A stretch of DNA of 64,000 nt, from the NCBI GenBank assembly GCA_002989075.1, contig PSQN01000006.1, forward strand, positions 248,001 through 312,000. Direction: 5' to 3'. Shown one piece after another: positions 22,430-54,800 of the stretch (position 1 is its first letter; each line of letters starts with the position of its first letter). The DNA is from Arthonia radiata (lineage: Eukaryota > Ascomycota > Arthoniomycetes > Arthoniales > Arthoniaceae). A program made the position numbers and the translations under genes. The notes under the pieces were generated by a model. The model made no database searches. It was not told the DNA's origin and was given only the letters and a program-made list of their open reading frames with translations.

Positions 22430-23440
22430 GATTCTCGTTCATACTACCTAAGCAGTCGCTCGGTTTCACTCCTAAAGAGTTACTTACACCCAGCACCACG
22501 AGAAGGTGGACTGCATTGCTGGGCAAAAAAAAATGGGTTTATAGTTCTTTGGTGCTCAACAGAGGACTCCGTGCAAGAGAGTCTTGTTCGGCAGTCACTG
22601 TAACGTTTCAATTTGACCGCAATGCCGCATCCACTTTGTAGTGAATTTGGCTCCACTGACGTATCAATGGGGTTGGAGAGTTGGCCGAAGCCGTGGCCGA
22701 AGCCGTTCATCGACGTATCAATGGGTTTGGAGATTGGCCGAAGCCTCCACCGACGTATCAGTGGGTTTGGAAGTTGGCCGAGGCCGTCCATCGACGTATC
22801 AATGGGGTTGGAAGTTGGCCGAAGCCGCCACCGACGTATCAGTGGGTTTGGAATGGCCGAAGCCTCCACCGACGTATCAGTGGCTTTGAAAAGAGCCTGG
22901 TCGAGATGTGTCGAATTGTCGAAGGACTTGTAATGTTGGTCGTATTTTACTGTTTTATTGTCTCTTGCTGTCAAAGACATGTTGGTGTGTGGTCGTCGAT
23001 GCTATCGTGCCGTCGAGGATGTCTTGCGGTAATGGTGTCGGACGTTCGAAGATGGCGCGTTGTCGAAGGTGTGTTGCTGTTGAAGGCGTCGGCTTATCGA
23101 AGAGTTGAATCATCGGAGCTATCGGACGGTCGGAGGTGTCTTATTGTCAAAGGTGTAGAATCGTCGAAACTTCGGAATGTGCGAGAAGTCGTATCTTGGG
23201 AAGTCGCAACCTCGAAGTCATGGCGTCGATCTTATCTGGTCCTTCATGACTGGATGTCGTAGTGAGGTAAAAGGATTATGGTTTCGGCGAGGGTCGGTGA
23301 TTCTAATGGATGAGTGAGCAACTTGAAGCAACTTGTGAGGATGACGGTGGGAGCTATTAGAGTGCTTACGCTTGAGGTTGGTGCTTTTGTAAACGCCCGG
23401 GGGGCGACCATGTAGAAATTGATTGATGAACAAAGCTAAT
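22430..23440 (+). repeat. Dispersed element R1 (head, hairpin array, skewed tail)
   Basis: First of four copies of a repeat family, all in the same orientation. The head (22,430-22,640) shares ordered blocks with R2: GATTCTC, CAGTCG(C/T)CTCGGTTT, GAGC/GGGCAAAAA, GGGTTTNTNGTTCTTTGG, CTCAACAG(A/C)GGAC, CCGTGCA, CACTGTAACGTTTCA, TTTGACC. It then runs into the hairpin array at 22,651-22,886. The tail to about 23,440 is T/G-rich on the plus strand with recurrent TCGAAGGTGT-like words. R1 is the most diverged head. No transposase or reverse transcriptase is encoded; boundaries and target-site duplications could not be fixed. Confidence 0.7.
22651..22886 (+). repeat. R1 hairpin array, ~40-bp period, loop CGACGTATCA
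   Basis: Six units with GACGTATCA at 22,658, 22,712, 22,752, 22,793, 22,833 and 22,872. The core is a 4-bp stem around a 10-nt loop. Arms are CCAC/GTGG in units 3, 5 and 6 and CCAT/ATGG in unit 4. Unit 2 is TCAT/ATGG with one G-T pair, and unit 1 has one mismatch. Between hairpins lies a GGTTTGGAAGTTGGCCGAAG-like spacer. Confidence 0.85.
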
Positions 23441-28588: not shown

Positions 28589-29560
28589 ATACGTGATTCT
28601 CACTACCTACCTATCAAGCAGTCGTCTCGGTTTCGCATCATAAATGGGCTACACCACCAATGAGCTACTCACGCCCGGCGCCTCGTGAAGGCTCGACTGC
28701 ATCGCCGAGCAAAAACAATTGGGTTTGGTTCTTTGGCTCAACAGCGGACCCCGTGCAGGAAGGTCATGTCGAGTGTCACCGTAACGTTTCATTTGACCTC
28801 AGTGCCGCGTTCACATTTTACAGTGAAGTTGGCTCCACCGACGTATCAGTGGCTTTGGTAAACCTTCCACGTATCAAAGGAGTTGGTACGTATCAGAGGG
28901 GTTGATAATCCACCGACGTATCAGTGGGGTTGGTAAACTCTCGACGTATCAAGAGGGTTGGTAATCCACCGACGTATCAGTGGCGTTGGTAGACCTTCGA
29001 CGTATGGAAGGGGTTGGTAGGCCTCCGACGTATCAGAGGGGTTGGTAGACCTTGGATGTATTGGAAAGACTTGTAGAATTGCGGCGCGACGGTAGAGTTG
29101 CTGAAATTGTCGTATGCGGATAACAGTCGTTGGAATGGGTTGAATTGGCGAATATAGAAGCTTCAACGGAGGATTGGTGGTGATTGTTGATGATCGTAGG
29201 TAGTTGAGGCCTGTAGGAGCGGTTTGTGACTCGGAAGGGCGACTGATGAGTATTTCGTAAGCTCCAGCGCACGTTCGTTTGAAATATTGCTTACGAATGG
29301 TTTGAGGGTGCTGGAAATGAAATGCAAGAGTTGTGGTCGATGAAATTGTTGAAGATGAAGTTGGTTGAGGGAAGAGTCTTCGAGGTTGGTGCACAATGCC
29401 AAGACTTTGCTTGGCAAATCCCGAAAAGGAAGGACCCACTAAAGGATCAACGGGGGTTTCTGCAAACGAGCCTGCATTTTCACGCTCGCCGTGAGAACAT
29501 TGTTGCTTTGAACGAAGCAATCTGCTTACATATTGGCCACGTAGCATAGCTAGGCCGTCG
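28589..29560 (+). repeat. Dispersed element R2
   Basis: Second family copy. The head at 28,589-28,830 matches R1 over its full length and matches R3/R4 in the right half (GAGCAAAAAC, TTCTTTGGCTC, CCCGTGCAGGA, TCATGTCGAGTGTCAC, GTAACGTTTCA, TTTGACC). The array follows at 28,835-29,060, then a tail rich in TTG and GATG words to about 29,560. A minus-strand frame of about 230 codons spans array and tail, but it starts without ATG and is low in complexity; I do not call it a gene. Confidence 0.75.
28835..29060 (+). repeat. R2 hairpin array, 28-bp period, four different stems on one loop
   Basis: Hairpins with arms and left-arm starts: CCAC/GTGG at 28,835; CCTT/AAGG at 28,863; CCAC/GTGG at 28,910; CTCT/AGAG at 28,938; CCAC/GTGG at 28,966; CCTT/AAGG at 28,994; CCTC/GAGG at 29,022. 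The loop is CGACGTATCA, with small variants CCACGTATCA and CGACGTATGG. The last five start exactly 28 bp apart. One defective unit near 28,885 and one near 29,050 lack a clean stem. Confidence 0.9.
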
Positions 29561-31957: not shown

Positions 31958-34700
31958 ATGGACGTTGCTACTAACAGACCACCTCCAATCGGCGGTGATC
32001 TTCCCCCAACACCGCCGGAGTCCGATGGCAGCAAATCTTCCCGTTCGTCGTCGCCAGTATCATCTCAAGAATCACAACCAGCATCATCGCTTCCACAACC
32101 ACCTCCCCGCCCAGCTGTTCATGTTCTCGATGTGGACAAGAAAACACCGGACAGTCACGTTGCTCGTGATCCTCGCTTGATACGACTGACTAGCGTACAT
32201 CCGTTCAATGTCGAAGCACCTTTGTCCGATCTTTTCAACGAGGGGTTCCTCACCAGCCCCGAACTCTTCTATGTCCGCAACCATGGGGCTGTACCGATGG
32301 TCAACAATGCAGATATTCCAGACTGGGAATTCTCTGTGGAAGGGTAAGCGACCGTGAGTGCCAAGGGCGAGTAGTCGCGCTGACAGGGTCTAGGATGGTC
32401 GAGCAGCCTTTCAAAATGACCTTGAGGGAGTTCTTGTCAGAGTTTGAGCAGGTGACATACCCAGCCACGCTTGTCTGCGCTGGCAATCGAAGGAAAGAAC
32501 AGAACGTCGTCAGGAAAACAAAGGGCTTCTCATGGGGCGCCGCGGGAGTGTCGACGGCTTTATGGACCGGCGTACCCATGTCTGAAGTGATAAGGAGGGC
32601 CAAGCCAAATCGCAGAGCCAAGTACGTCTGCATGGAGGGAGCTGACAAACTGGTATGATTTCTCGCCTTTGGGATACGTGCAATCTTCGCTGACTATAGA
32701 AGCCTAACGGTTACTACGGTACGTCTGTAAAGATGAATTGGGTTATGGACTCAAACCGCGGCATGATGCTTGCTCATAGGATGAATGGCGAACCGCTCAC
32801 ACCAGATCACGGCAAGCCGTTTCGTGCTGTGATACCTGGGCAGATAGGCGGGCGGAGTGTCAAGTGGCTGAAGAAGCTCATTATCACCGACAAGCCGAGC
32901 GACAACTGGTATCATATCTACGACAATCGCGTCTTGCCAACCCAGGTGTCCCCAGAAGAGTCTGCTAACAACCCCGATTGGTGGAAGGACGAACGCTATG
33001 CCATCTTTGATCTAAGTTGCAATTCAGCGATCGCTTACCCAGCACACGAGGAGCAGCTGTGTTTGCAAGGAGCGCCTGAAAAGTATCGACTAAAGGGATA
33101 CGCATACAGTGGCGGTGGTCGGCGCATTACCAGGGTTGAGATCTCAATAGATCGGGGCAAAAATTGGCGACTTGCGACGATCGACTATCCAGAAGACCGA
33201 TACAGAGAGGCAGCAGAAGGCACAGAAGTATGCGGAGCGAAGCTGGAGATGGATTGGCGAGAAACATCGTTCTGCTGGTGTTTCTGGAACATTGACGTGA
33301 GCGTGGGGGAGCTGAAAGACGCATCGGATGTTGTTGTGCGCTGTATGGATGAAGCGATGCAGGTGCAGCCAAGGGAGATGTATTGGTCGGTTTTGGGGAT
33401 GATGAACAACCCATGGTTCCGGATCACGATCAGTCACGAGAATGACTACCTACGGTTCGAGCATCCCACGCAGCCCGCATTGATGCCCGGCGGATGGATG
33501 GAGCGAGTGAAGAAGGCTGGTGGCAACCTTTCAAATGGCTACTGGGGTGAGAAGCTGGGCGGCGAAGCGGAGTCTGCGCCCGCAGCTGAGCCAGCGCCTG
33601 AGGTGAAGCTTACAAAAGAGGGCGTTGATCGTCTAATCACTATTGATGAGCTGAGAAAGCACGACAACGCCGAGGAGCCATGGTTTGTACTCAACGGAGA
33701 AGTCTACGATGGCACGCCTTTCATGCAAGAGCATCCTGGCGGCGCTCAGAGCATCATCTCCTCAGCGGGCATGGACAGCACAGACGAGTTCATGGCCATT
33801 CACAGCGAGACAGCCAAAGGCATGATGCCAGGATACCACATCGGACACCTTGATGAAGCGTCGCAGAAGGCGCTGAGCGAAGGAGAAGTACAGGAGAACG
33901 TCTCATCAGAGCCGCGCGAGTTCTTCTTGAACGAGCGCTCATGGAACAAAGGCATCCTCGAATCGAAGCAGGCTGTGTCCTGGGATACGAGGATCTTTCG
34001 CTTTAAGCTGCAGCACGAAGAGCAGAAACTCGGACTGCCCACTGGAAAGCATCTCATGATGCGACTTCGAGATCCCGTTACTCGTGAAGCCATCATCCGC
34101 CCATATACTCCGCTCTCGGAAGAACGCCAGCTGGGTTATCTGGACGTCTTGGTGAAGGTCTACTTCGACAGCAAAGAACGCAAGGGCGGTAAGATGTCAC
34201 AAGCCATGGATGCCATACCCATCGGCCATTTCATCGACTTCAAGGGCCCAATCGGCAAATTCGAGTACTTCGGCAAAGGTCGCTGTGCGGTCAATGGCAA
34301 GGAGCGGCCGGTCAAAAACTTCTACATGATTTGCGGCGGCAGTGGGATCACACCCATCTTCCAGATCTTCCGCGCTATCATGCAGGACAAGGACGACTTA
34401 ACGAAATGCACTGTATTGAACGGCAATCGCTTGGTCGAAGACATCCTGTGTCGAAAGGAGCTGGACGATCACTCGCTGGGCAACGACCACAAGTGCAAGA
34501 TCCTGCACACCTTGACACAAGCGGCGGATGATTGGAAAGGTCTTCGTGGTAGGATTGGGGCGCCACTGATACAAGAGCACTGCAAAAAGGAGCACGAAGA
34601 ATCAATGGCGCTGATATGCGGTCCGGAGGCGCTGGAAAAGAGTGTTCACAAAGCGCTGAAGGAGCAGGGCTGGTCGGATGATGACTTGTTGTTTTTCTGA
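31958..34700 (+). CDS. niaD: Assimilatory nitrate reductase [NAD(P)H]
   Basis: Reduces nitrate to nitrite in the cytosol. Exons 31958-32343, 32394-32652 and 32700-34700 join in phase to about 881 aa. The start at MDVATNRPPP is the usual short leader; the frame is open upstream. Domains in order: molybdopterin domain (ELFYVRNHGAVP, ATLVCAGNRRKEQN with the Mo-ligand Cys, KPNGYYGTSV), Mo-co dimerisation domain (YSGGGRRITRVEIS), cytochrome b5 at about residues 525-600 with heme histidines in HPGG and HSETAK, FAD domain with RPYTPLS, and NAD(P) domain with CGGSGITP and ICGPEALEKSV, ending in LLFF. All cofactor motifs are present. The nitrite reductase gene follows on the same strand after about 600 bp. 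Confidence 0.96.
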
Positions 34701-35295
34701 TAATCAGCATGACCGCACGGCAGGCTGATACATATTGTGTGGAGTCCTGAGCGAGTAGTAGGCAAAGTAATCAATTACTACAACCCTCCCATCATCGCCA
34801 AAGGAACATTGGCAGGGGCGGCTGTCCTCCGCTCCGCCGTCCACAGCGGAGATACGAGTGGCTGAAGAACCATGCTGCTTAGTCAGCATGCGCAGAGATA
34901 AGACTCTTGCCGTCTTCCAATCATCCCTTCATTCCTATCTCATCTCGAACCCGACCGCAGACCATCTCCAGGAAGGTTCATTCTATCAGCCATGTTTTCT
35001 CCGTGGTTAACTCATCCGATCACTGCAGACGTGCGTAACCAGCTGCACGCCAATAGGCTCGACCCGGGTCGACATCTCCACCCAGTGCTTCTGGTCTCCG
35101 TTGAATCGCCAAGCCATTGCTGCAGCGCGCTTCTCCTCGATATCGTCGATCTTACTGAATTCACATTTGCCATGCGCCACTTTGAAGCTTCCTTTATTCC
35201 TACCTCTGCTGTGTCCTTGTAGCAATTGGTTTGCGCTGTTACTGTGCTTGTAGAGTGCCCCGCGTGTCCGCCTGAGGGCTTCTTAATCGCCCAGT
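34701..35295 (+). promoter_or_regulatory. Nitrite reductase promoter / nitrate-reductase 3' spacer
   Basis: Contains one perfect NirA/NIT4-type site and several GATA-factor (AreA/NIT2) sites: GATAAG at 34,897, and reverse-strand AGATAG near 34,937 and TGATAG near 34,984. The arrangement fits joint nitrate induction and nitrogen-metabolite regulation, known for fungal nitrate genes; binding here is inferred. Confidence 0.55.
34999..35006 (+). promoter_or_regulatory. Putative NirA/NIT4 binding site CTCCGTGG
   Basis: Exact match to the CTCCGHGG consensus of the nitrate-specific Zn2Cys6 activator, about 290 bp upstream of the nitrite reductase start and about 15 bp after a reverse GATA site. An 8-bp match can occur by chance, but the position is right. 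Confidence 0.55.
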
Positions 35296-38200
35296 ATGAG
35301 CAACAGCGAGTGGAACGATGCGGAGGCAAACGTCTTGCCAGAGAAGGTGGCGGAGATGGAGCGAAAAGATGAGATCCCTGATACTCCCAAGCGCAAAAGA
35401 ATAGTTGTTGTAGGCTTGGGCATGGTTGGCATTGCTTTCATGTACGTCAAGGCGGTCTCCATTAAAACAGAGAAGGACATCTGACTAGAATCACGTGACA
35501 GCGAGAAGATCATGAAGTTGGACGTCAAGCGAAGAGAATGGGACGTGGTCGTGATAGGCGAGGAGCCACATCTGGCATACAATCGTGTTGGCTTGACAAG
35601 CTTCTTCCAGCACCGCAAGGTCGAGAACTTGTATCTGAACCCTGAGGAATGGGTTCGTCGGGCCCTCCGCTTTACGCAACATCGCCTTGCACTAACGGGA
35701 CACACAGTACAAGAGCATGCCGGATGGCTCACTTAGCTACCATGTGAACGCGACCGTCACCGAGATCCACAAAGACGAAAAGCTAGTGTCATGCGCCGAC
35801 GGCAGTACTGTCCCGTACGACGCTCTTGTCCTGGCTACCGGCTCCGATGCACTTCTCCCACGGCATACGCCGGGCCACGATGCGAAGGGCGTCTTCGTCT
35901 ACCGCACGATCGACGATCTTCAGAAGCTCATTTCCTTCGCAGCGACAAAGAAAGGATCTACTGGCGCCTGTGTAGGTGGAGGGCTGTTAGGCCTTGAAGC
36001 TGCGAAAGCGATGATGGATCTCGAAGACTTCGGCAAGGTCAAGCTGATCGAGCGGAATCGGTGGGTACTATCAAGGCAGCTGGACAGCGATGCAGGCGGC
36101 ATGGTCGTGGAGCAGGTGAGCCAGCTGGGTCTGGACGTGATGCTAAGCAAGCGAGTTGGCAAGATCAATGTTGATGATGGCAACAATGTCACCGGCGTGC
36201 GGTTTGAGGATGGCGAGGAGATGGAATGCTCGTGTATCTGCTTCGCGGTGAGTTGAGAGCCGAAAACAAGCCAGAACCAGAAGCAAGCTGACGACATATA
36301 GATCGGCATACGCGCGCGCGACGAACTGGCGCGAAAGGCAGGCATCAAGTGCGCAGACCGCGGCGGCGGTATCACTATCAACAACAACCTACAGACGTCT
36401 GAGCCCGAAATCTATGCGATCGGCGAATGCGCCAGCTGGGAGAACTCGACCTTCGGTCTCATTGGGCCAGGCGTCGAGATGGCTGATGTTCTCGCATTCA
36501 ATCTCACACAAGCAAAAGCGCACTCGCCACGACAGTTTCAAAGACCCGATCTCAGCACCAAGCTTAAGCTACTAGGTGTAGAAGTGGCAAGCTTTGGCGA
36601 CTTCTTTGCGGACCGCGACGGACCCAAAGAAATGCCAGTCAAGCGTCATGGTGCAAAAGAGGTCCGTGAAGGTACGGCAGAGCCCAAAGACCGTGTGAAA
36701 GAGCTCACTGAAGGTCCAGCGCCACCTGCCGTGAAAGCTCTTACATACAAAGATCCCTTCCAGCAAGTGTACAAAAAGTACCTCTTCACACTAGATGGCA
36801 AGTACCTATTAGGCGGCATGATGATAGGCGACACCAAAGACTACATCAAGCTGGTCCCCATGGTCAAGAACAAGAAGCCCATCGACGTCTCACCCTCCGA
36901 GTTCATCATCGGAAAAAATTCCAGCGAAGACGACACCGGCGACCTCGGGGAAGACACCCAGATTTGCTCCTGCCACAACGTCCTCAAAGGCGACATCTCC
37001 AACGCCATCAAAGACGGCACCTGCAAATCCATCGGCGACGTCAAGTCCTGCACCAAAGCCGGCACCGGCTGCGGCGGCTGCATGCCCCTCGTGCAGACCA
37101 TCTACAACAAGACCATGGCGTCCATGGGCCAGGAGGTGAAGAACCACCTGTGCCCGCACTTCGACTACTCCCGCGCCGACCTCTTCAACATCGTCTACGT
37201 CAAGAAACTCGACTCCTTCCCCGCCATCATGAAGGAGTGTGGTAAAGACCCCGAGAGCACCGGCTGCGAAGCCTGCAAACCCGCCATCGGCTCCATCCTC
37301 GCCAGCCTCTTCAACAAACACATCATCTCCTCCTCCCGCCGCGGCCTCCAAGACACCAACGACCGCTTCCTCGCCAACATCCAGCGCAACGGCACCTTCT
37401 CCGTCATCCCCCGCGTCTCCGGCGGCGAGATCACCCCCGACAAACTCATCATCATCGGCACCGTGGCCAAAAAGTACAACCTCTACACCAAAATCACCGG
37501 CGGCCAGCGCATCGACATGTTCGGCGCGCGGAAGCAGGACCTCCTGGAAATCTGGCAGGAGCTCGTCGACGGCGGCATGGAGTCCGGGCACGCGTACGCC
37601 AAGTCCCTGCGCACGGTCAAGTCCTGCGTCGGGACCACGTGGTGCCGCTTCGGCATCGGCGACTCAGTGGGCATGGCCGTCCGCCTCGAAGAACGGTACA
37701 AGTCCCTGCGCTCCCCGCACAAGATCAAAGGCGGCGTGTCCGGCTGCGTGCGCGAGTGCGCCGAGGCGCAGAACAAGGACTTCGGGCTCATCGCCACGGA
37801 GAAGGGCTTCAACGTCTTCGTCGGCGGGAACGGCGGGGCCACACCGCGGCATTCTGAGTTGCTCGCCAAAGACGTGCCGCCCGACGATGTCATACCGATC
37901 CTAGACCGCTACCTCTCCTTCTACATCCGCACCGCGGACAAGCTCCAGCGCACCGCCCGCTGGATCGAGAACCTGCCCGGCGGGATCGGGTACCTGCGCG
38001 AAGTCATCCTGGAGGATAAACTGGGCATCTGCGCGGAGCTGGAGAAGCAGATGTCCGACCTCGTTGGCACGTTCTTCTGCGAGTGGACGGAGACGCTGAA
38101 GAATCCCGAGAAGCGGAAGTTTTTCACGCAGTTTGCGAATACCGATGACGCTGTGGAAACCGTCGAGCCCGTCATGGATAGAGGGCAGACACGCCCTGCG

Positions 38201-38842
38201 TACTGGCCTGCGGAGAGCGCGACAGAGGACTTCCGAGGTCATAAGTGGAGCAGCCTGAGCTGGCAGCCGCTGGTCGAGACGGCGAAGTTCTCCGACGACG
38301 CCACGGGGTCCAGCAACCCGGTAAAACGCGGGGACACGCAATTGGCCGTCTTCAAAATCAAGGGGAATTACTACACTTCCCAGCAGATGTGCCCGCATAA
38401 ACGCGCCTTCGCGCTTTCCGAGGGCTTGATCGGCGACGCCACGGACCCGAATAATGCGGACACAAGCAAGCTGTGGGTGTCCTGTCCCTTCCACAAGCGG
38501 AACTACACGCTCAACGGGGCGGACGCCGGGCGCTGCGGGAACGACGAGTCCGTGAACATCGCTACGTTCCCGACGGAGGCGCGGGAGGACGGGTGGGTGT
38601 ACGTGAAGTTGCCGCCGGTGGAGGAGCTGGATGCACTGTTAGGGACGGAGAGGTGGAAGGTGAAGGCGGAGGAGACGAGCGATCCGTTTGGAAAGATGGA
38701 CGAGAAGATCTTGAAGGGATTGAAGGGTAGGAAAGTGGGGATCGGAGAGGGGAGGAAGAGTCATCTGGAGGGTGGGAAGGGGGAGGTGGCGAAGGCGAAT
38801 GGGATTTTGGCTGGCGAGGAGAAGGGGGGGATTGATTGGTAG
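35296..38842 (+). CDS. niiA: Assimilatory nitrite reductase [NAD(P)H], siroheme type
   Basis: Six-electron reduction of nitrite to ammonium. Exons 35296-35441, 35502-35652, 35708-36247 and 36302-38842 join in phase to about 1,125 aa, the family's usual length. The N-terminal FAD/NAD(P) region has [22 protein letters not shown] and [15 protein letters not shown]-type [2Fe-2S] segment (CSCHNV ... [11 protein letters not shown]) follows, then a ferredoxin-like half domain. Siroheme/4Fe-4S cysteines lie in [15 protein letters not shown] and [18 protein letters not shown]. The C-terminal Rieske domain has CPHKRAF and CPFHKRNY ligand pairs. Everything needed for activity is present. It lies head to tail with nitrate reductase; no nitrate transporter is in this window. 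Confidence 0.96.
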
Positions 38843-45949: not shown

Positions 45950-47260
45950 AAGTGGAGAGCAGCTGTAGCATATGAAATTAAATCAGATTACGCTCGTGAA
46001 TGAACAGTACTCCGGCGCTTGCATAAAATCAGCCAATTTGGGACCTTCCTTGCCATGGTGTTCTGCTCTTCATTTCGGACACCCGCTTGAGGTCGCCATG
46101 GTATCCTGCTCTTTTGTCTTGGACACGTCCTTGAGGCGGCGATGAGCGAACGGACAGCTTCACTGACTTGTGAGATCTAATCAGAACTCGGCGGTAAATG
46201 GGCTGATACTCCGGCGCCTGCAGAGACTCAGCCATTATAAGACCTCTCTTGCCGGCGTGTTCTACTCTTCATTTCGGACCAGTGCTTAAGGCGGCGAAGA
46301 GCAGGTACACAGTCTCAGTAGCTTGTGAAATCCAATCAAAGCTCGTCGGTGAAGGGGCCAATAATCCGGCGTCTCCAGAAACACCCCGATTTGGAGACCG
46401 TTCCTACCACGGTGTTCTGCTCTTCATTCTGGACGCGTGCTAGAGGCTTGCCACGAGCAGGTACACAGCTCTAGTTGATTGGGGAGTTCGGCCAATATTT
46501 GACCGTGCAAGGGCCCATATTCCGGCGTCTACAGATACACCCCAGTCTTGAGACCTTTCCCACCAGGGTGATCTGCTCTTCCTTTCGATCATGTATTTGA
46601 GGCGGAGGAGAACAAGTACAGAGCCTTCGATATTGAGGAATACGTTTTAGCTTTCGTCACAAGAGAGCCCATACTCCGCCGTCTGTAGAAATAGCTTAAT
46701 CTCGAGACCGTCTTGCCAGATTGTTCTGCTCTTCATTTCGACCATGTGCTTGAGGCACAGGAGAGCAATTTGAGAGCCTGCCCAAGATAGGGATATGTCT
46801 CGAATATGGTCGCGAAGAAGCCAATACTCCGGCGTCCGTAGTGAAATAGCAAATCTGACACGCTTGTTGCCAGATGCGCTGCTCTTCATTCGAACATGAT
46901 CTTGAGGCGAAGGGAGAGTAGAGAGCCTTTCTCGTGTATGGAATATGACTGGAACATGCTCGCGAATCAGCCGATATCCCGGCGTCGATAGAGACACCAC
47001 GATATTGAGACCCTCGCATGCGGCTCTTCATTCTCGATACTGAACGCGTAGATATCCGCGCCTTGTAGAGGACTGTCATCAAGCTTTAAGAAACTCGAAA
47101 ACAAATGGAGAGAGCCCCTGTAGCATATGGAATATCATATAGAACTGGTCAAGAAGTAGCCAATACTCCAGCGTCAGCCGAAACAGGGCAGTTTCAGGAC
47201 CCATCTGACCAAGGCATGCAGCTGTTCATCTCGGACGCTGGGCATGTACGTCAGCGCGCT
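45950..47260 (+). repeat. Tandem array of ~154-bp degenerate monomers
   Basis: Begins at the stop codon of gene A. The anchor TACTCCGGCG or close variants recurs at 46,008, 46,207, 46,362, 46,518, 46,672, 46,825, 46,975 and 47,164 (intervals 199, 155, 156, 154, 153, 150 and 189). About 45-60 bp after each anchor comes GTGTTCTGCTCTTCATTTCG or a variant, then CTTGAGGCGG and a GAGCAGGTACAGAG-like block. The first and last monomers share a GGAGAG...TGTAGCATATG block that, in the first, lies just after the gene A stop codon, so the monomer includes gene 3' flank. No coding frame is conserved. Confidence 0.8.
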
Positions 47261-47336: not shown

Positions 47337-48880
47337 GGAAGTCGTCTCAGCTTGGCCTGCTTGCTAGCAAACAATGACCGTAACACTCAACGCCACGAGT
47401 AGGCGCGACTTCATCGTTGAGCAAAAACGTTTGAATAAATTTCTCTTTGGCTCGACAGAGGATCCCGTGCAGGAAGATCTTGTCGAGTGTCTCTGTATCG
47501 TTTCAATTTGACCCCGGGTTCCCTGACGCTTCCTTGTGGAGGTAGGAAGAAGCTTGCAATGCAAGTAGTGACAGAGTTGAACTGCCCATGGAGTGTGAAG
47601 ACGAGAGATCACTTCACGTCTAGACACAGCCACCAACCGTGTAAGGACAGGCTGTTGCCCCTGCCCAGACGAGCCCACAAAGCGAAGAGACCGGCTGTTG
47701 CCCCGGCCTAGTCACCAATCCAAATTTGTAAGGACAGGCTGTTGCCCCTGCCCAGACGAGCCCACAAAGCGAAGAGACCGGCTGTTGCTCCGGCCTAGTC
47801 ACCATTCCAAGTTGCAAGGACAGGCTGTTTCCCCTGCCCAGGCGGCCCACAAAGCGAAGAGACCGGCTGTTGCCCCGGCCTAGTCGCGGTCGTGAAGAGA
47901 CAAGCTGTTGCTCTTGCCTAGTCACTTAACCCACAATATGAAGAGACCGGCTGTTGCTCCGGCCTAGACACAGAACGTTCGAAGAAGGTTTGACGACAAT
48001 GATGAAAGCCACTGACCAATGGTGCAGAGGCGGGTTGAGTTGCGTCAGACACTGACAGGCATGTTGAGCCGATTTAACGCGCTTTGGAGGATGACCTGAT
48101 GATCGGTCGGAGGTCGTTGAAAACAGGTCGAACGTGAAAGATGGCTGGCTGTTGCGACATTGACTGGTGGAGGTGCGGACGATTTGGCGTGTATGGTAGA
48201 TTTGAAGACTTGATTTGACGCGTCCGTTGATGGTTCGAAATAGCTTGGCGTTGGACTGAGATGACCTTCGATGATCGATGTAGGGCGAGGTGATGTTCGA
48301 TGAGCTCCTCTCGGTTGAGGGATGACGCGGTGATGACGGTGATAATGAGGTTGATGATGATCAAGGTTCACATCGAAGCTCGTAAATGACATTTGCTGAT
48401 GAGGTGCGGTCGAGGATGAGGAGCCGACTGTTATTACCGTGACTTGAGGATGATTTTGGTTTGGTCGATGAGAAGAGCTTGAGGACCTCGATTCTCGGTA
48501 CCTTTGACGGCAATGGTGAAGACGGTCTTCGCCATGATTTGAAGTTGAACGATGGCGGTGGTCGGAGGTTCGTGTTTGCGACTTATGCAGGTATATTGGT
48601 GAAGGAGGTCTGAGAGCGTTGACGAATCGAGAGGAAGAGATCGTTCCGGTAAGATATCCTGAGGAATGTTGATGGTGGTGCTTGATGCTCAAGAAGGTAG
48701 AGAGATTCTTAGCAGTCCCCTGATGCATCAAAAGCTCAAGGGAAAGTCGCAAGCGTGAGCTTCTTGTTGCTTGCTCAATGCCGTGGAAGAAACAGGATCA
48801 CGCGAGATCTAGAGTTGGGACTACGGAAGAGATAAAAATGTGAGAGGCTGGGTTTTAAAGGGTTGCCAACCCTAACAAAC
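47337..48880 (+). repeat. Dispersed element R3
   Basis: Third family copy. The head (47,337-47,520) is closest to R4: GAAGTCGTCT(C/T)AGCTTGGCC, GTAACACTCAACGCCACGAG, TAGGCGCGACTTC, GAGCAAAAAC, TCTTTGGCTCG, GGATCCCGTGCAGGA, TGTCGAGTGTC, CTGTATCGTTTCAATTTGAC. The hairpin array is at 47,641-47,970 and a GATG/TTGA-rich tail runs to about 48,880. A minus-strand frame of 235 codons covers the tail, His/Ser/Pro-rich, starting without ATG; I treat it as compositional. Confidence 0.78.
47641..47970 (+). repeat. R3 hairpin array, ~43-bp period, loop CTGTTGCC/T
   Basis: Eight hairpins with left arms at 47,648, 47,691, 47,735, 47,778, 47,821, 47,863, 47,901 and 47,948. Arms alternate CAGG/CCTG and CCGG/CCGG; the seventh is CAAG/CTTG. 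All eight pair over 4 bp around the 8-nt loop CTGTTGCC or CTGTTGCT (one CTGTTTCC). Spacers include CCCACAAAGCGAAGAGA and AGTCACCA blocks. Confidence 0.9.
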
Positions 48881-53286: not shown

Positions 53287-54800
53287 AAGTCGTCTTAGCT
53301 TGGCCTTCACAAAAGTGAAAGGCGGTAACACTCAACGCCACGAGTAGGCGCGACTTCGTCGTCGAGCAAAAACATTAGCTTTTCTTTGGCTCGCAGCGGA
53401 TCCCGTGCAGGAGGATCATGTCGAGTGTCACTGTATCGTTTCAATTTGACCGCTACCCCTGGCACTCCTTGCGGAGGTAGAGAGGAATTTGAATGTAGCG
53501 ACAGATTCGAACTGTCTGCAACGTGTAACGAGCAGTAATGCTGGCTACGGCATTGCCTATGTCGTACTTGATCGGTGGACTCCAATTACAGTACTAAAGC
53601 GTAGAGACTGCTCGACTGGAGTCAAAACGCACCCACATCGCACTTGATCGGTGGACTCCAATCACAGCGCTTAGCACAGAGGCTGCTCGACTGGAGCCAA
53701 AGCGCAACCCACAATCGCACTAGACCGGTGGACTCCAGTCTCAGTACTGCCAACATAGTACTAGATCGGTGGACTCCAATCTCAGCACCAAACCCACATA
53801 GCACTAGATCGGTGGACTCCAATCAAAGCACTAAAGCACAGAGACTACACGACTGGAGTCAAAGCGCACCCACAAGCACAGAGACTGCACGACTGGAGTC
53901 AAAGCGCACCCGCAAGCACAGAGACTGCACGACTGGAGTCAAAGCGCACCCGCAAGCACAGAGACTGCACGACTGGAGTCAAAGCGCTTGCAAGTTGGTC
54001 CGGGGACCATACGGTAAGGTACTGGACGACAGGTTGATAAGACGCCGAGGCGTGAATGCAAGCCATTGATGAAGTCGATCGTGGCGGGTCGGTATTGATG
54101 GCGGCTTGTACGTTGGCTGATGTGAAGCCTTTGCGGACTTCTGAGGAAGCTTTGACGGCTTGGCTTGACATTGACGAACAGTTGAGATTGGCTTGGCGTT
54201 TAATGACGTTCTTGCTTGGCAGTCGTTGGTGAGACGCCGTTGCTGGTGAGTTGATTTCGCTTGACCTTGACCTTGACGAAGGCTGCAAGGGTAGCTTGAT
54301 ATAATTTTTTGAAAAGAGCCGACACTGATTCGAATGAATTGCTGGTGCAAAGTCGATGGCTGTGAGATTGCTCGTGCGGTGAGGTTGATGATGATCGTTG
54401 AAAAGCGGTCAGATAGATGGTTTGAAGGCGTTGATGACGTGGCTGGATCAGGTTGATGTTGTGTGTCAAGGAAGGAAGACTTTTTGTTGATCTGAATGTG
54501 ATAGAGACGTAAAACGGTTGAGGTTGATAGAGTCGTTTCGGTCGAGTGGATAGTTTCGCGTGACTTGAGATGATTTCGCATCGTGTGATTGATACTTTCT
54601 TCGGCGCAGCGGTTGAGGCGAAGGTGCAAGCGTTGTCGATATATAGGAGCTGACTCAGAACGATAGAGTCTGCTGCTCATTGAAGATGAAGAATGAAACG
54701 TAGAAGTTCGCGTTGAAGATAAATATGAACGGAGATGGAGACGCAGTGAGATACAAAGAAAAGAGAGGCGGGATGCTGACTAATCAAGAGCCGTTAACGC
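53287..54800 (+). repeat. Dispersed element R4
   Basis: Fourth family copy. The head (53,287-53,460) is nearly collinear with R3 and includes a CCTTCAC-AAAA-GTGAAAGG inverted repeat where R3 has TTGCTAGCAA. The two-type hairpin array lies at 53,569-53,985, then a TGA/GTT-rich tail to about 54,800. A minus-strand frame of 233 codons with an ATG covers the tail but is Ser/Gln/His-rich and shows no domain; it does not resemble R3's frame. Confidence 0.78.
53569..53985 (+). repeat. R4 hairpin array with two interleaved hairpin types, ~40-bp period
   Basis: Type 1 has the loop CGGTGGACTCCA: arms TGAT/ATTA at 53,569, TGAT/ATCA at 53,645, AGAC/GTCT at 53,722, AGAT/ATCT at 53,763 and AGAT/ATCA at 53,806 (outer pair lost). 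Type 2 has the loop GCTCGACTGG or G/ACACGACTGG: GACT/AGTC at 53,606, GGCT/AGCC at 53,681, and GACT/AGTC at 53,843, 53,883, 53,923 and 53,963. Types alternate at first, then run in blocks; the last three units are nearly identical, suggesting recent expansion. Confidence 0.9.

Follow-up and report, generated by a model that had tools for sequence, protein, structure and literature searches.

Four elements, all on one strand and within 31.5 kb of the window (the whole 64,000-nt stretch analyzed here, C13:248001-312000), each place an array of small hairpins beside a conserved domain of ~140 bp that appears to derive from U6 (Table 1). The covariation of the hairpin stems, the preference for the minus strand, the four-copy family and the relation to U6 were all observed by computation. 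In our best explanation, to which we give about an even chance, the elements are four paralogous minus-strand noncoding RNA genes whose hairpin arrays, built on a U6-derived 3' domain, would act as a multivalent platform or sponge. An initial annotation of this DNA had described array 2 alone; far from standing free, the array is one of four, each beside the conserved U6-related domain. Array 1, with the same core, two arrays with other loops and the domain common to all of them had been missed.

Comparison of the window with itself showed that a ~120-200-bp block beside array 2 recurs at 22.5, 47.4 and 53.4 kb, always next to a tandem array. In the one genome examined (33.5 Mb, 16 contigs), BLAST with the element 3 block as query returned exactly the four loci, and with the element 2 block three of the four; copies that have diverged further may lie elsewhere in the genome. 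A 24-place pattern allowing up to three mismatches found the four elements at zero mismatches and one unrelated place at three; a candidate with three mismatches (L040) had no model match and was rejected. A covariance model scan of 264 kb of this contig gave four matches of at least 144 bits and one antisense match of 14.5 bits (E 0.17), and no other array in those 264 kb has this kind of neighboring domain. Used as genome queries, arrays 2, 3 and 4 each matched only themselves, and one such search missed array 1, so that search is blind to relatives this diverged. Rfam 15 yielded zero matches at the gathering threshold in the window and zero at E<=5 for the four loci holding the elements; in open-licence texts we found no description of such an RNA.

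Protein-coding explanations were rejected. Minus-strand ORFs of 166-233 aa lie beside or run through the arrays but are unconserved between elements beyond the repeats common to elements 1 and 2; open frames also exist in other phases, and none of the four ORF regions has a Pfam match. Single-base gaps among the four copies of the domain break every frame, which excludes the domain as an exon. The nitrate reductase encoded in the window shares 77% identity with its counterpart in Coniocarpon cinnabarinum, the nearest named match, and one other match reaches 78%, so the source is a filamentous ascomycete.

Table 1. Positions in the window of the hairpin arrays, the U6-related domains and neighboring features.
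Feature	Positions	Strand	Details
Array 1	22653..22883	minus	6 hairpins, core as in array 2, stems CCAC and CCAT; also 6 mini-hairpins
Array 2	28835..29067	minus	7 complete hairpins, 1 arm-lost unit (28886-28905), 1 degenerate unit (29050-29067)
Array 3	47645..47965	minus	8 hairpins, 7-bp stem with constant G.U
Array 4	53564..53987	minus	6 type-A and 5 type-B hairpins
U6-related domain, element 1	22480..22623	minus	149.6 bits
U6-related domain, element 2	28665..28803	minus	model R1 154 bits; 3' (downstream) of array
U6-related domain, element 3	47377..47518	minus	161.2 bits; the only one with intact GATACAGAGA
U6-related domain, element 4	53322..53456	minus	144.8 bits
Element 2 core that matches U6 at and near the ACAGAGA box (ACGGTGA in this element)	28775..28798	minus	predicted GUCA/UGAC fold-back
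Stem P2, element 2	28737..28773	minus	CTCGACA..TGTTGAG plus inner GACC/GGTC; place of the U6 internal stem-loop
T5 run, element 2	28711..28715	minus	place of the U6 3' end
T runs, other elements	T9 at 22533, T5 at 47427, T5 at 53372	minus	place of the U6 3' end
Stem P1, element 2	28674..28709	minus	beyond the T run
C-rich, G-poor stretch 5' of array 2	29067..29316	minus	13% G on minus; weakly folding
Similar stretches 5' of arrays 1, 3 and 4	22893-23142, 47972-48221, 53991-54240	minus	G 16-18%
Nitrate reductase and nitrite reductase ORFs	32700-38842	opposite	between elements 2 and 3
Diverged tandem array	46002-47135		directly past element 3 on its 3' side; 7 aligned units of 147-179 bp

The seven complete hairpins claimed for array 2 are present, starting at 28835, 28863, 28910, 28938, 28966, 28994 and 29022, and they carry the four stem kinds reported (CCAC three times, CCTT twice, CTCT and CCTC once each). 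Measured between core starts (28839, 28867, 28886, 28914, 28942, 28970, 28998 and 29026), the spacing is 28, 19 and then 28 five times, matching the five consecutive exact 28-bp steps of the initial annotation. Against its claim that the arms always stay complementary, two array 2 units absent from it are imperfect: one has lost an arm and shows a spacing of 19 where 28 is expected, and another is degenerate. On the minus strand, the unit consists of four variable pairs, the sequence UGA-UACG-UCG and a ~10-nt spacer (TNTACCAACC). What had been called an invariant 10-nt loop is indeed a constant head, but on this strand it is mostly paired (U.G, G-C, A-U) around a UACG tetraloop. Of the complete units of arrays 1 and 2, 11 have U.G as the outermost constant head pair, one has C-G and another U-A, so that both departures remain paired; two units have the next pair broken, C.C at 28994 and G.G at 28863. 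These two (28863-28880 and 28994-29011) are the sole complete units with a broken near-head pair; both are CCTT-stemmed, and they complement each other in trans at -21.4 kcal/mol, compared with -22.9 kcal/mol for a duplex of two CCAC units.

Arrays 1 and 2 have a common core, CGACGTATCA, and arrays 3 and 4 are built of other units. The mini-hairpins interleaved in array 1 are GGC-UUCG-GCC in five cases and GGC-CUCG-GCC in one. Array 3 hairpins carry an 8-nt loop, RGCAACAG (RGAAACAG in one), on stems CCGG/CCGG, CAGG/CCTG and CAAG/CTTG. Type-A hairpins of array 4 read GCGC..GACU CCAGUCGUGC AGUC..GUGC and type-B hairpins GURCU..GAUUGG AGUCCA CCGAUC..AGURC; the outer stem varies in both types too, with pairing kept. 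Unit counts show many copies of one motif on variable scaffolds in all arrays, with 13 complete units sharing a head in arrays 1 and 2, eight in array 3, and six and five in array 4. Two-unit higher-order periods of 81, 56 and 87 bp accompany the unit period in arrays 1-3, and recent amplification is visible in array 4. Adjacent hairpins of arrays 2 and 3 never have the same stem, an arrangement that would lower mispairing or may only reflect two-unit duplication. A role of the core as a guide to many sites was rejected: CGACGTATCA occurs 59 times genome-wide versus 50 times for the reversed pattern, and 10 of the 59 lie in arrays 1-2.

The proposal that the stems covary beyond independent drift was borne out by shuffle, helix-position and tree-count controls. 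In the alignment of arrays 1 and 2 (14 in-register units in nine distinct rows, the degenerate unit included and the arm-lost unit excluded), 94.4% of stem cells are paired, versus 75.8% (sd 5.2) in shuffles, and the covariation score is 0.722 versus 0.347, with 0/500 shuffles as high in either case; by the same comparison, the number of pairs altered in both arms (123/500) and that of additional pair types (42/500) were unremarkable. Array 3 is 100% paired versus 87.5% (1/500), and arrays 4A and 4B, at 31/500 and 52/500, are weak alone. A helix scan of the 13 complete units in arrays 1-2 found that 3 of 210 four-pair positions combine at least 90% pairing with at least two doubly changed pairs, and these three are one helix shifted along itself; the hairpin position was the sole standout in arrays 1-2 and in array 3. 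No four-pair helix of 4A passed this filter, and the one that passed in 4B overlaps the drawn stem but is out of register.

Because related units inflate shuffle counts, changes were also placed on minimum-distance trees. Over the four alignments (1+2, 3, 4A and 4B) there were 13 pairing-keeping doubles, nine single changes to or from a wobble and three breaks or repairs, whereas neutral random placement of equal numbers of arm changes gave means of 0.9 doubles and 21.1 breaks. At least the observed number of doubles arose in 0, 0, 5 and 89 of 5000 simulations, and at most the observed number of breaks in 16, 11, 67 and 32 (arrays 1+2, 3, 4A and 4B, respectively). Compensatory changes in the arrays exceed the neutral model, and the counter-case raised in the initial annotation, pairing broken as often as kept, is not what the arrays show (13 compensated doubles versus three breaks). 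In this tree-based count the arrays do not behave as an ordinary minisatellite drifting regardless of pairing. For short tandem repeats of the kind set aside as minisatellites, a single genome is enough to test for RNA function, since the units themselves provide the alignment.

Several lines of evidence assign the structure to the minus strand. Folded singly, 30 of the 32 complete units are more stable on minus. Relative to dinucleotide shuffles (40 per array and strand), arrays 1-4 have z-scores of -3.2, -4.5, -1.4 and -3.8 on minus and +0.3, -0.8, +2.6 and -1.5 on plus, the minus value of array 3 being not significant alone (7/40 shuffles as low). Stem cells on minus comprise 176 Watson-Crick, 26 G.U and 3 A.C, a count biased by the stems having been drawn on that strand; each minus-strand G.U would become A.C if read on plus. 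In agreement with the wobble count, RNAalifold on the domain gave a covariation term of -3.12 for minus versus -0.88 for plus. Tetraloops of the stable UNCG class (UACG, UUCG) occur on minus only. The plus-strand reading was rejected on stability, wobble pairs and covariation.

A 19-place block pattern matched three further loci at one mismatch, and these are the genome's U6 genes, identified by Rfam (RF00026) at 54.5-59.7 bits; a match at L044 was dropped as apparently coding sequence. Over its 24-nt core, element 3 has 95.8% identity to the three Rfam-called genes. Model R1, built without U6, scored these loci, themselves selected with the core pattern, at 20.5, 14.6 and 14.5 bits, the 20.5-bit match extending end to end. 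In a global alignment of element 3 on the minus strand, GGTCAAATTGAAACGATACAGAGA, CCTGCAC, CAAAGAGA and CAAACGTTTTT are collinear with spliced U6. Each element was also compared with each U6 gene over the part following the ACAGAGA box, T run included; of these 12 comparisons, eight had a best local score that at most 3/500 single-base shuffles matched, and in the other four 17-66/500 did so. These likenesses point to common ancestry of the domain with U6.

A working U6 was nonetheless rejected as an identity for the domain. The ACAGAGA box is kept in element 3 and altered in the other three (ACAGTGA in elements 1 and 4, ACGGTGA in element 2); the AGC triad/U4-pairing stretch that follows it (AGAUUAGCAUGG in the genome's U6) has been replaced by CACUCGACA.. 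(CUGCCGAACA.. in element 1), which folds into P2; P1 is an additional stem past the T run; and an Rfam match is absent. Judged from its sequence, the domain is U6-derived and not U6. All four elements preserve the seven outer pairs of P1, double changes among them, and the minus-strand consensus of the domain has 11 of 37 pairs doubly changed, four of these in a doubtful long-range helix. Taken whole, the domains show no unusual stability (z on minus of -1.0, +0.6, +0.4 and -2.1 for elements 1-4). The covarying P1 beyond the T run suggests that the RNA would continue past this run and so not be ended there by RNA polymerase III. Similarity of the flank 3' of the T run to the U6 flank was not significant, nor was downstream B-box homology to the U6 genes. 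A snRNA-type promoter motif had three two-mismatch matches in the four ~2-kb upstream stretches, at unrelated places, and none was recognised as a promoter.

The three U6 genes lie at L041:933, L042:912 and L043:306 (C2, C12 and C14) and have a common CACRGRCCACCT motif upstream. Each has an apparent intron of ~52-57 nt after CCCCTGCA, starting with GTATGT or GTGCGT (limits set by eye); the domain has no intron where these genes carry theirs. Introns in fungal U6 genes are known (PMC5832005).

If transcribed, the RNA would run, 5' to 3', from a G-poor, weakly folded stretch through the hairpin array, with one constant head per array (two types in array 4), to the U6-derived domain with P2 and P1. 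Heads shown many times on interchangeable stems could be bound repeatedly by a head-recognising protein (or RNA), and the U6-derived domain may be retained as a stability, localisation or assembly module. Partners would differ, as heads differ among the pair 1/2, element 3 and element 4. We favor the multivalent platform or sponge because loop-specific binding predicts just such an arrangement, in which the head stays constant, the stems can be exchanged and each molecule carries many copies. Weighing against it, the modeled whole-RNA ensemble does not favor all hairpins. Mean stem probabilities over whole elements are 0.32, 0.41, 0.58, 0.06 (4A) and 0.14 (4B) on minus, and 0.13, 0.14, 0.05, 0.07 (4A) and 0.20 (4B) on plus, low values that arise because units also pair with each other.

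Such pairing could itself be the working form of the same RNA, as a mesh of duplexes between repeat units like that proposed for the Xist A-repeat, for which competing inter-repeat models exist (PMC5742192). Because they are palindromic, units are able to form duplexes in trans (-22.9 between CCAC units, -21.4 between the two broken-head units), and the minimum-energy fold of element 2 contains several such pairings. The mesh has to be taken seriously as a rival, although we consider it rather unlikely: the one-copy stems CTCT (28938) and CAAG (47898) are perfectly self-complementary with no same-stem partner in their arrays, which argues that it is intra-unit pairing that is preserved, and the UNCG heads suit hairpins. 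Separate hairpins would then be the form that matters. Fungi have hairpin-derived small RNAs, and strand-specific hairpins in tandem could be precursors of such RNAs (RNAi or milRNA-like loci); at 4-7 bp, reaching 11 in array 4 where internal loops interrupt them, the stems are far below Dicer-type length, and neither conserved heads nor a U6-derived domain would be needed, making small-RNA precursors highly improbable. Local retrocopies chimeric with U6, or a SINE-like element, with repeats amplified passively, would explain why the domain is intron-free, as a copy of spliced U6 should be, and would fit the recent amplification in array 4. That origin seems improbable, given four undispersed copies in a single cluster and orientation, paralogue differences that preserve pairs, and U6 likeness at the 3' rather than the 5' end of the unit.

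The initial annotation had offered structured RNA or cruciforms under selection, or template switching, as its options, and structured RNA proves the better one. In template switching (quasipalindrome correction), one arm is copied from the other, so that pairing would arise as a by-product of replication and serve no function in an RNA. Consistent with this, the variable pairs of arrays 1-2 are nearly all Watson-Crick (51/56 cells), and arm differences are short multi-base changes. Such copying would, however, give perfect palindromes with no preferred strand, whereas G.U is kept in all eight array 3 units and all five 4B units, wobble intermediates occur on minus, and covariation extends to P1 and P2 of the four domains, which are not repeated. 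Selection on RNA is favored because strand-specific stability and the wobbles fit minus only; template switching may still account for arrays 1-2 taken alone but is disfavored overall, where we regard it as very unlikely. The arrays are intergenic, palindromic and repeated, as would be cruciforms or palindromic DNA sites bound by a dimeric transcription factor. In such sites, however, the arms stay constant, and here it is the arms that vary, around a fixed center; the strand asymmetry would also be left unexplained, and the chance of a DNA-level role is very small.

Other repeats lie on the same contig. The diverged tandem array beyond element 3 has 55% mean column identity, its consensus folds weakly on either strand, and Rfam gave no match to it at E<=1. 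At ~178-209 kb of C13 (L019-L022), the repeat list contains a cluster of A+T-rich short tandem repeats, in a contig otherwise of ~53% G+C, that resembles repeat-mutated fungal regions.

If transcribed, the elements would provide a fungal RNA with the textbook signature of loop recognition (head fixed, stem free), dozens per molecule in four paralogues with different heads; the hairpin head would be a ready pull-down bait for a partner, and the domain an example of a spliceosomal RNA recruited to another role. A broader reading, possible but doubtful, is that these are a new eukaryotic RNA class, in which U6-derived RNAs with locus-specific hairpin heads would serve as differently addressed multivalent adaptors for protein or RNA targets, all resting on one retired spliceosomal module, their stems diverging while the heads stay fixed.

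Platforms of tandem hairpins are already known as a kind, and we rate the present elements as a variant of it. The mammalian Xist A-repeat also consists of tandem units (~26 nt) forming tetraloop hairpins with linkers, the tetraloop being AUCG there and UACG here; it is described as a probable multimerisation platform for proteins, and individual hairpins versus inter-repeat duplexes are debated in both cases (PMC5742192). The present elements differ in having four loci, different heads, a U6-derived domain and stems that differ and covary within an array, and no relationship to Xist is expected. The CsrB/CsrC sponge RNAs of gammaproteobacteria likewise use many hairpins presenting one loop motif to titrate a protein, CsrB sequestering CsrA through 22 GGA motifs, many of them in hairpin loops (PMC7652899). 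They are bacterial, present GGA instead of these heads, and have neither a covarying tandem array nor a snRNA domain; their partner is CsrA, whereas here one is inferred. Among fungal noncoding RNAs, meiRNA of fission yeast is a proposed Mmi1 decoy with many short motif copies, but its DSR motif, UNAAAC, is described as a linear hexamer and not a hairpin head (PMC8293462). To U6 (RF00026) the domain is collinear, sharing the GGUCAAAUUGAAACGAUACAGAGA core, CCUGCAC at the internal loop, CAAAGAGA and oligo-U, and it departs from U6 in the replaced AGC triad region, the ACAGAGA box altered in three of four, the extra stem after oligo-U and the lack of an Rfam match and of an intron. The combination of a U6-derived domain with locus-specific heads would, if borne out, set these RNAs apart from the known platforms as a new class.
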